From NCBI RefSeq assembly GCF_900112895.1, contig NZ_FONL01000001.1, positions 221,234 to 285,233 on the forward strand: a stretch of 64,000 nucleotides of DNA, given 5' to 3'. Below the pieces are notes generated by a model. The model was not told where the DNA came from, ran no database searches, and saw only the letters and a list, made by a program, of their open reading frames with translations. How positions within the stretch are numbered: position 1 is the stretch's first letter; each line of letters starts with the position of its first letter. Source of the stretch: Succiniclasticum ruminis DSM 9236. Its GTDB lineage: Bacteria; Bacillota; Negativicutes; Acidaminococcales; Acidaminococcaceae. Positions 40,861 through 43,803 of this stretch are shown piece by piece. The position numbers and the translations under genes were made by a program.

Positions 40861-41281
40861 AAATAAAAAATCCTGTTGCGACATTGCAACAGGACGAATG
40901 ACCGTGGTACCACCTGAATTCTCTGTTCATCATTCAGGTGAAACTCCGGCTTATCTTACGCAAATACGGATTGAATCAATATTTGTGTGATATGTTGCCC
41001 ACCTGACTATGGACAAAGCTCTTATTGATTACGTAACGTGTAACACGGGAACGCTTACGCATACAACAGCACAACGAAAAAACTTACGTCTTCTTCATTA
41101 TTAATTATTGCTGTCATACTTCAGCGTTCCGGCTCCCGGGCTACCTTCCTGCATTTCCACCGGACGGTTTTCACCAGCCCCGTCCTCTCTTCAGGTTTTC
41201 CTGCAGTACTCCTCCCGCTCACGGCCGTTTTCTATAAAAATTGTACTTTTTTAGTTTATCAACCTCAGGTAACGCTGTCAA
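40861..41281 (-). promoter_or_regulatory. T-box riboswitch and promoter of valS-folC
   Basis: Minus strand: TTGACA (41276-41281), 17 bases, TAAACT (41253-41258), then a leader of about 380 nt. The conserved T-box sequence GGTGGTACCACGG is at about 40900-40913, and the terminator stem CCTGTTGC/GCAACAGG (40871-40894) is followed by TTTTTTATTT. The GGAGGAGTACTGCAGG and GACGGGG elements near 41180-41215 belong to stem I. Uncharged tRNA-Val should open the terminator. I could not fix the specifier codon by eye. Confidence 0.93.
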
Positions 41282-41666: not shown

Positions 41667-42596
41667 ATGAGCTCACTGCATGTTACTTCCAACCGTGAAA
41701 AGATTGCCATGCGCATCTCCTGGTACAGCATCGCAGTCAACGTCTTTCTGTCCCTGGGCAAATTCATCGCCGGTATCTTCGGCCATTCCGCCGCCATGGT
41801 CTCCGACGCCATCCATTCGGCCTCGGATGTTTTCGCAACGTTCATCGTCATGGCCGGCATCAAGATCTCCGGAAGAGCGTCGGACGACGACCACCAATAT
41901 GGCCATGAACGCCTGGAGTGCGTGGCTTCCATCCTGCTTTCAGTTATTTTAGCCCTGACCGGGCTGGCCATCGGCTACGCCGGCATAGAGAAGATCCTGA
42001 ACCAGGATACCGAGTCCATCGCGATTCCCACGTTCCTGCCCCTGGCTGCCGCTATCATTTCTATTGTAGTAAAAGAAGCCATGTACTGGTATACGCGCCA
42101 CTATGCACTGATGCTGGAATCCGACGCGCTGATGGCCGACGCCTGGCACCATCGCAGTGATTCCCTTTCGTCCATCGGCAGCTTCATCGGTATTCTGGGC
42201 GCCCGCATGGGCTACCCCATCCTGGATCCCATCGCCAGCGTGGTAATCTGCCTGATGATCCTGCAGGCCGGATATGAAATCTTTATGGGCGCCATTGACA
42301 AAATGGTTGACAAAGCCTGCTCCAAAGAAGAAGAAGATGCCATGCGGGCCAAGGTTGCCGCGGTTCCCGGCGTCAGTCACATCGACCTGCTGCGCACCCG
42401 TCAGTTCGGCAGCCGCATCTTTGTGGATGTGGAAGTCAGCGCCGACGATAACCTGACCCTGCTGCAATCCCACCAGATTGCGGAAGAAATCCATCATTCC
42501 ATAGAAAAAGACTTCCCCAATGTCAAGCACTGCATGGTACACATCAATCCCCTGAGCGAAGTGTCCCATGAGTGTTACGGAGAGCACCGCCATTAA
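41667..42596 (+). CDS. Cation diffusion facilitator (CDF) metal exporter
   Basis: A 309-aa CDF protein with six membrane helices (about 15-205) and a C-terminal cytosolic ferredoxin-like domain (about 210-300, VDVEVSADDNLTLLQSHQIAEEIHHSI). Metal-site residues in helix 2 (SDAIHSASD) and helix 5 (ADAWHHRSDSLSS) are complete. The D/D and H/D set fits Zn, Fe or Mn export; the metal cannot be fixed by reading. AAAGGAG is before ATG 41667. It stands alone, divergent from the valS T-box. Confidence 0.92.
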   Translation: MSSLHVTSNREKIAMRISWYSIAVNVFLSLGKFIAGIFGHSAAMVSDAIHSASDVFATFIVMAGIKISGRASDDDHQYGHERLECVASILLSVILALTGLAIGYAGIEKILNQDTESIAIPTFLPLAAAIISIVVKEAMYWYTRHYALMLESDALMADAWHHRSDSLSSIGSFIGILGARMGYPILDPIASVVICLMILQAGYEIFMGAIDKMVDKACSKEEEDAMRAKVAAVPGVSHIDLLRTRQFGSRIFVDVEVSADDNLTLLQSHQIAEEIHHSIEKDFPNVKHCMVHINPLSEVSHECYGEHRH

Positions 42597-42670
42597 ACCG
42601 GGGTTCCGGAACCCAAAAACGCTTGCATATAATTCTTACATTTAAATATCCCGCCTTTTCAGGCAAATAA

Positions 42671-42701
42671 AAAACCCGCATGGTCCAGATGCGGGTTTTT
42701 T
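42671..42701 (+). terminator. Terminator of the CDF gene
   Basis: AAAACCCGCAT (42671-42681) pairs with ATGCGGGTTTT (42689-42699), followed by a T-run. A-run and T-run on both sides make it bidirectional, so it could also catch readthrough of the RNA gene from the other side. Confidence 0.92.
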
Positions 42702-42794
42702 ATTTGCAGCTGTGTCAAAAGGAGAAGGAGAAGGATGGGAATTTGCTAAATGACTTGTGAATAGCAAACGATTTATCAAAATATTTCGCCCTGC

Positions 42795-43018
42795 AAGTAA
42801 TAGAATAAGACCGTTTCTGCTTGCGCAGGAACGGTCTTGATATCATTCACTGGCATCTTCCCACTCTCACCTAGAAAGATACTTCATGTCCAACATCACT
42901 ATCCTGTCGCTCGCAGGTTAAGCAAGGATGCTTATACAGTTTACACTCCGGTTATACGGTGACGGGATCACATCGGAATTGCGCCGATTTAATAAACTGC
43001 ACGAAATATTTATTTGAT
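42795..43018 (-). ncRNA. Unassigned structured RNA of about 220 nt
   Basis: A transcript unit without ORF between converging genes. A perfect promoter, TTGACA (43048-43053), 17 bases, TATAAT (43025-43030), points into it. The 5' part folds as a junction: CAGTTTA pairs TAAACTG and encloses ATCGG/CCGAT, GTGA/TCAC and CCG/CGG hairpins; then CCTG/CAGG and AAGC/GCTT hairpins follow. It ends with a 14-bp hairpin (42807-42838) and an AU-rich tail (ATTCTATTACTT). I do not find SRP, tmRNA, RNase P or cobalamin-riboswitch cores. 6S RNA or raiA-like RNA are families to test, not claims. Confidence 0.65.
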
Positions 43019-43024
43019 GGTTTA

Positions 43025-43053
43025 ATTATAACGATTCCTATTAAGTCTGTCAA
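43025..43053 (-). promoter_or_regulatory. Consensus promoter of the 42.8-43.0 kb RNA
   Basis: TTGACA, 17-base spacer, TATAAT on the minus strand, matching sigma-A consensus at all 12 positions. It starts 44 bases after the engB stop codon and no protein gene lies downstream on this strand until the CDF terminator. Confidence 0.88.
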
Positions 43054-43096: not shown

Positions 43097-43753
43097 TTAT
43101 TCTTCCAGAGTCACTTCGGAATCTGCTGTCAGAGCAGCCATGATCCGGTTAATAAAGTCCAGCCGCATGGTGGGCTGAAGGACAGAATAGGCTGTAATCT
43201 GTTCGTCCGCAAGCCCCAGCGCTTTCTTAAAAGCCGCGCGCTGCGACATGGCCGCATTCCGGCTGAGCTTATCCGCTTTGGTAAGCACGACATGTATATT
43301 AAGCCCGCACTCACGCATCCATTTATAGGCCTCAATATCACTTTCCATCAGCTGATGACGTATATCCATAAGCTGGCAGACCAGCGCCAGATTCGGCGCC
43401 TCTTCCAGATATTTGCGGATAAAACCGGACCACTGTTCCTTGTTCTTATGATTGGTTTTGGCGAACCCGTAACCGGGAAGATCCACCAGATAGAACTGTG
43501 TCCTGTCTTCGGCCTGTTCCGTAACCCGCTTGGCATCCAGCCGGTAAAAATTCAGCGTCTGTGTCTTGCCGGGCGAAGAACTGACCCTGGCCAGCCCGTT
43601 CCGGCGGCAGACCGAATTGATCAAAGAAGACTTACCTACATTGGATCGCCCTATAAAAGCTACTTCAGGCAAATATGGCTTGGGATACTGTTCCGCACGG
43701 ACTGCAGATGTAATAAATTCCGCACGGATCACATCCCAGTGTTCTTTTGTCAT
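43097..43753 (-). CDS. engB: Ribosome-biogenesis GTPase EngB/YsxC
   Basis: About 218 aa. G motifs: GRSNVGKSS (G1, about residue 35), SSSPGKTQTLNFY (G2), DLPGYGFAK (G3), LTKADKLS (G4). EngB is needed for assembly of the 50S subunit. AGGAGG lies five bases before ATG 43753; the GTG at 43759 is inside that site and rejected. Last protein gene of the tig-clpP-clpX-lon-engB neighbourhood. Confidence 0.96.
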   Translation of the reverse strand: MTKEHWDVIRAEFITSAVRAEQYPKPYLPEVAFIGRSNVGKSSLINSVCRRNGLARVSSSPGKTQTLNFYRLDAKRVTEQAEDRTQFYLVDLPGYGFAKTNHKNKEQWSGFIRKYLEEAPNLALVCQLMDIRHQLMESDIEAYKWMRECGLNIHVVLTKADKLSRNAAMSQRAAFKKALGLADEQITAYSVLQPTMRLDFINRIMAALTADSEVTLEE

Positions 43754-43803
43754 GCGCACCTCCTTATCTGCTCAGACTAACGCCGGACCGTACCCGGCGT
43801 TCC

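Follow-up and report, generated by a model that had tools for sequence, protein, structure and literature searches.

A gene on the minus strand of Succiniclasticum ruminis DSM 9236 probably encodes a stand-alone regulatory RNA, in which a cobalamin riboswitch lies between the promoter and the body of a CU-rich trans-acting small RNA (sRNA) and in which B12 would truncate the sRNA. The gene lies within a window of 64,000 nucleotides (contig NZ_FONL01000001.1, positions 221,234 to 285,233), whose first-pass annotation, made from the sequence alone, had described a structured non-coding RNA gene with a strong promoter. Comparative analysis supports that description in silico, adds conservation to it, and changes both the extent of the gene and the family to which its 5′ part is assigned.

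Locus and distribution of the RNA gene

Transcription is predicted to start from a minus-strand sigma-A promoter (43025-43053) with TTGACA at 43053-43048, a 17-nt spacer and TATAAT at 43030-43025, which agrees with the consensus at 12/12 positions, as annotated; the spacer and the -10 region (CTTATTAGGAATnnTTATAATTAA) are kept across genera. The entire RNA gene is placed at 42665-43018 (-), a length of about 350 nt, with its start predicted from the -10 element and its end from a strong terminator (T2). It does sit between two converging protein genes: engB (43097-43759, -) lies upstream on the same strand, and a cation efflux gene (41667-42596, +; Pfam PF01545) converges on the RNA unit from the opposite strand. 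That the unit encodes no protein is borne out by the lack of any ORF of at least 60 aa on either strand between 42597 and 43096, and a small ORF inside the hairpin region was rejected because the reading frames are unconserved among orthologs. Elsewhere in the window, a T-box leader precedes valS (40887-41231, -; 112.1 bits).

The RNA locus is present in 14/14 genomes of the genus Succiniclasticum. Scanning named genomes with a DNA pattern gave 30 loci from Succiniclasticum, Phascolarctobacterium and other Acidaminococcaceae/Selenomonadales; P. faecium DSM 14760 and strain ET69 are among the Phascolarctobacterium sources. With a covariance model (R1), orthologs across nine genera of the family scored 167-239 bits, and the next matches reached at most 113 bits. 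The lower-tier matches that were read (L154, L155, L156, L161 and L162) are ordinary cobalamin leaders before a protein gene; R1 alone was therefore rejected as a family marker, and the family was instead marked by the gap in R1 bit score plus the presence of the 3′ domain. The presence in every genome of the genus, together with the helix covariation described below, indicates that the RNA element is more than a chance arrangement, and the conservation asked of it by the first-pass annotation is thus found both within the genus and across the nine genera.

The gene upstream of the RNA is often engB, and the downstream gene varies between genera (the cation efflux gene, ridA and others). This variation argues against cis control of the neighbour, and probably no downstream gene is under the control of the RNA. 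Ordinary cobalamin riboswitches were seen in several other places in the genomes. One at L009:1501-1682 (109.7 bits) lies ahead of a gene whose sequence was read as encoding a methylmalonyl-CoA mutase subunit, cbiD-like (L010) and TonB-receptor-like (L011) genes follow others, and three of the leaders named above (L155, L161 and L162, genus g6) stand before genes with an S-layer-homology (SLH)-like start. In genus g15, a canonical copy with the same promoter type (L041:1338-1510, -; 97.9 bits) precedes an msrA-like gene. Two NiCo riboswitches (L043:28-118, 74.5 bits; L060:3240-3334, 67 bits) lie no more than a few kb from the RNA.

Aptamer, internal terminator and alternative pairings

A permissive Rfam search (4227 models, 4 kb) matched RF01482 to window positions 43019-42894 over the full model (1-149) with 34.6 bits (E 8.5e-4), a score below the cut-off of 50 bits for this family; RF00174 (cut-off 31.5 bits), run on the organism's own genome, did not report the window copy. 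The RF01482 cut-off is passed by orthologs L046 (57.2 bits), L071 (56.5 bits) and L039 (51.7 bits), and that of RF00174 by L043 (38.6 bits), identical in sequence to the P. faecium DSM 14760 copy L073, and by L037 (31.6 bits). Because these orthologs pass one or the other cut-off, the 5′ part is, as judged from sequence, a cobalamin aptamer that has diverged in Succiniclasticum. The aptamer, of the AdoCbl type, occupies 42894-43019 (-) and comprises P3, P4, P5 with its loop L5 (GATCCCGTC), P6 and P13. The annotated multibranch junction is present (GCAGTTTA...TAAACTG around three hairpins): its CAGTTTA/TAAACTG arms are P3, and the enclosed hairpins are P4, P5 and P6. The conserved cobalamin core and covarying P3-P6 helices are accompanied by no ORF behind the aptamer and by a downstream neighbour that differs between genera, so that the aptamer does not occupy a leader before a regulated gene; such a position is usual for cobalamin riboswitches and not obligatory. 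The earlier statement that no known riboswitch core could be recognized is overturned. Like that annotation, the Rfam search found no match to SRP, tmRNA or RNase P; the families that the annotation had proposed, a divergent 6S or raiA-type RNA, likewise gave no match and were rejected, along with other Rfam families.

Covariation was assessed in an alignment (A3) of 26 distinct sequences that had been aligned without structure information. Across seven local helices, 96.2% of pairs are standard and 25/37 pairs show double-sided changes, with a covariation score of 0.490 compared with 0.234 for shuffled sequences and at most 0.170 when the partner strand is slid. Behind the aptamer, a hairpin with a variable stem and the conserved loop GUGAGAGUGG (42852-42882, -) has double-sided changes in 4/4 scored stem pairs. 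It is followed by T1 (42795-42838, -), a predicted intrinsic terminator with double-sided changes in 9/11 pairs. T1 contains the long hairpin at 42838-42807 (-), with AAGACCGTT/AACGGTCTT plus CTGC/GCAG arms, that had been annotated as a 14-bp terminal hairpin. The hairpin itself holds up; its terminal role does not, as conserved non-coding sequence runs on for about 130 nt beyond it, up to T2 near 42665. The U-tract of T1 is weak in Succiniclasticum, including the window copy, and stronger in several Phascolarctobacterium orthologs (L032, L038 and L039). T1 looks like an internal attenuator and not the transcript end.

Further pairings join the two sides of T1. The 5′ strand of P1 (AAATATTTCG, 43002-43011, -) pairs with 42788-42779, part of a segment downstream of T1 (42779-42794, -) that consists of GCAGG followed by the P1 3′ strand (CGAAATATTT). 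In addition, the 5′ strand (42917-42913) of the P13 hairpin (CCTGCGAGCGACAGG, 42903-42917, -) can alternatively pair with this GCAGG (42794-42790), forming P13*. P1 holds in 95.8% of cells, and P1 and P13* together in 96.9%, compared with at most 45% for slid versions; double-sided changes occur in three P1 pairs, and P13* shows one-sided changes only. P13 is possible in 26/26 sequences at each pair, and P13* in 25-26/26. Because GCAGG would pair with the P13 5′ strand, formation of P13* excludes the P13 hairpin. Since P1 and P13* use sequence beyond T1, the conserved RNA does not stop at T1, and two mutually exclusive pairings are possible within it. No clear candidate was found for an antiterminator, which would have to compete with T1 before polymerase has moved past.

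The 3′ domain and its compact relatives

Downstream of the P1 strand come a small hairpin (TTTGCTA...TAGCAAA, 42742-42768, -), a CU-rich candidate seed (TCCCATCCTTCTCCTTCTCCTTTT, 42717-42740, -) that is predicted to be 93% unpaired in the window RNA, and T2 (42665-42705, -), a strong terminator with loop CTGGACC that is apparently bidirectional and common to the convergent cation efflux gene. A CU-rich, anti-Shine-Dalgarno-like run is found in 21/24 orthologs and is short or broken in the other three (L038, L060 and L159); purine- and pyrimidine-rich motifs do arise easily. Succiniclasticum also carries compact genes of about 100 nt that resemble the window RNA in promoter (TTATYAGGAATnATTATAATTA), CU-rich run and terminator (CCCGCATnTGGACCATGCGGG) and that contain no aptamer. 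By exact pattern, six of the 14 genomes (G000, G002, G003, G007, G011 and G012) hold a compact copy in addition to the aptamer version. The best BLAST pieces between the compact genes and the 3′ part of the window RNA are 35 nt at 94% and 19 nt at 100% identity. Compact genes lie at L171:1480-1600 (-), L189, L194, L195, L202 and L232, and their neighbours include genes for CbiK-type chelatases, a solute-binding protein and a FecCD permease. The 3′ domain is best read as a CU-rich sRNA body that would act in trans, mainly because aptamer-less compact genes share its promoter type, CU-rich run and terminator.

One pattern search with the seed complement gave no convincing target; the near-complete complements fell in the RNA's own locus and its compact paralogs and, with three mismatches, at a few purine-rich sites. 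In genus g16, a minimal aptamer-less RNA (L040:1391-1477, -) has the same promoter type, the GGGGUGAGAG loop and AATCCTCCTTCC; its match to RsaE is weak (35.7 bits against a cut-off of 79).

Upstream of some copies there is a PerR/Fur-type repeat (ATTCTTATTGAGAAT) resembling one upstream of a perR-like gene. It reaches significance in L028, where it is of the PerR type, and in the g15 copies; a Fur box in the window-copy promoter is not significant (p 0.65), nor is a Fur/PerR-like box in most copies of the window genus. A metal or redox regulator from the Fur/PerR family may also control the promoter in at least some Phascolarctobacterium. In the feo promoters upstream of feoA (L077-L092) there are GTTAGC...GCTAAC repeats, an operator of the DtxR-like and not the Fur-like kind.

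Proposed control and its alternatives

These features fit a model in which adenosylcobalamin, once bound, would keep P13 and the contact between its loop and L5 in place, T1 would form, and termination there would release an RNA of about 220 nt without the tail. With little B12, polymerase would read through T1, after which GCAGG-n-CGAAAUAUU could capture the P13 5′ strand and the RNA 5′ end. The full RNA of about 350 nt would then expose its CU-rich seed, which could block the Shine-Dalgarno regions of target mRNAs. Which of P13 and P13* is favoured by B12 is something we infer. A doubly gated, lineage-specific sRNA, in which a promoter of the compact-sRNA family (possibly of the Fur/PerR type) times synthesis and an inserted cobalamin riboswitch gates the base-pairing tail, is plausible to us and somewhat short of probable.

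In EutX and Rli55, a stand-alone non-coding RNA begins with an AdoCbl aptamer followed by a terminator and is shorter with B12 (PMC5821096, PMC8079631). At the sequence level, the present RNA resembles EutX (Enterococcus) and Rli55 (Listeria) in that an AdoCbl aptamer forms the 5′ end of the autonomous non-coding RNA and is followed by a terminator, and in its predicted short and long forms and presumed action in trans. The alternative that the read-through part acts as a sponge of this kind, sequestering an RNA-binding regulator (an ANTAR or other protein) and not pairing with mRNAs, is in our view unlikely. An ANTAR protein is present in 19/19 family genomes tested and in the organism's own genome is a response regulator adjoining a histidine kinase, and the conservation of the GUGAGAGUGG and CCGGACA loops on variable stems is as expected for protein sites. 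Nevertheless, dual A1/G4 hexaloop hairpins of the EutX/Rli55 kind were found downstream of T1 in no ortholog: most Phascolarctobacterium orthologs have a single AGGGGU hexaloop hairpin (A1, G4) near the 3′ end, which at most counts as one strong candidate downstream of T1, and the window copy has none. In their place the present RNA has a CU-rich tail, and there are compact sRNA paralogs. Nor is there eut context at the six ANTAR loci read, where the pair adjoins carAB/purF/amt-like or tsaD/groES-like genes. One such histidine kinase and ANTAR response regulator pair lies at L176:4972-7114 (-). Similarly improbable is a reversible switch or ribonucleoprotein, in which B12 would toggle P13 against P13*/P1 post-transcriptionally, altering exposure of the loop or seed, and T1 would be merely structural. 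Control could act in this way, since neither P1 nor P13* can form until T1 has been read through; both pairings need sequence beyond T1, are supported by covariation, and accompany a weak T1 U-tract in the window. Against it stand the strong U-tracts of L032, L038 and L039, which are typical of real termination.

AspocR of Listeria, a non-coding RNA for which base pairing is the presumed mode of action, is truncated by a B12 riboswitch (PMC8079631). The present RNA would share with it the truncation of a non-coding RNA by a B12 riboswitch; AspocR, however, is a 1.4-kb antisense RNA of the adjoining pocR, whereas here about 350 nt are predicted to end before the coding region of an unconserved neighbour. 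That the RNA controls the convergent cation efflux gene in the AspocR manner, as an antisense RNA or by 3′-end overlap, with cobalt as the metal link, strikes us as very improbable. The efflux gene is convergent right behind the RNA in Succiniclasticum and a few others, yet T2, the predicted end of the RNA, comes ahead of the efflux coding region (stop at 42596), and the neighbour differs in most Phascolarctobacterium. Just as little weight attaches to a relic of a cobalamin riboswitch left after loss of its gene. The sub-threshold aptamer score in the window and the missing gene behind the aptamer are what a relic would leave, but all 14 genomes of the genus keep the RNA, which spans nine genera; almost every helix carries compensatory changes, and the promoter and both terminators are intact.

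The sRNA-type tail of the preferred reading has its closest likenesses elsewhere. Some of the C-rich sRNAs FsrA, IsrR and RoxS (RsaE) are Fur-controlled. In FsrA, a C-rich motif binds Shine-Dalgarno sequences (PMC9410917). With these sRNAs the present RNA shares a predicted unpaired C/U-rich stretch and a strong terminator, a likeness without demonstrated homology; unlike them it has an aptamer, and unlike the FsrA/IsrR type it has unsupported Fur control in the window genus. From RF00174/RF01482 riboswitches, whose aptamer core and P13/L5 elements it has, it differs in having no regulated gene and in the additional P1 and P13* pairings to sequence past the terminator. The open-licence papers searched yielded no published description of this RNA, an absence that is not proof, and a keyword search of two structured-ncRNA surveys found no mention of Acidaminococcaceae. 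The suggestion that the gene might be something new survives for its stand-alone, sRNA-linked setting, which is unusual, and fails for the aptamer, which belongs to a known family and is ordinary by the annotation's own rule that a confident family hit makes it so.

To our knowledge, riboswitch control has been described for few non-coding RNAs (EutX/Rli55, AspocR and SreA/B). If correct, the truncation model would add a case in another bacterial class, from rumen and gut, and the aptamer-less paralogs suggest how ligand gating could join an existing sRNA family. The model is testable in the culturable Phascolarctobacterium faecium, where B12 should set two RNA lengths. Propionate formation in rumen and gut bacteria rests on the B12-dependent methylmalonyl-CoA mutase; a doubly gated sRNA, if true, would represent AND logic of metal or redox state and B12 in propionate-forming gut bacteria.
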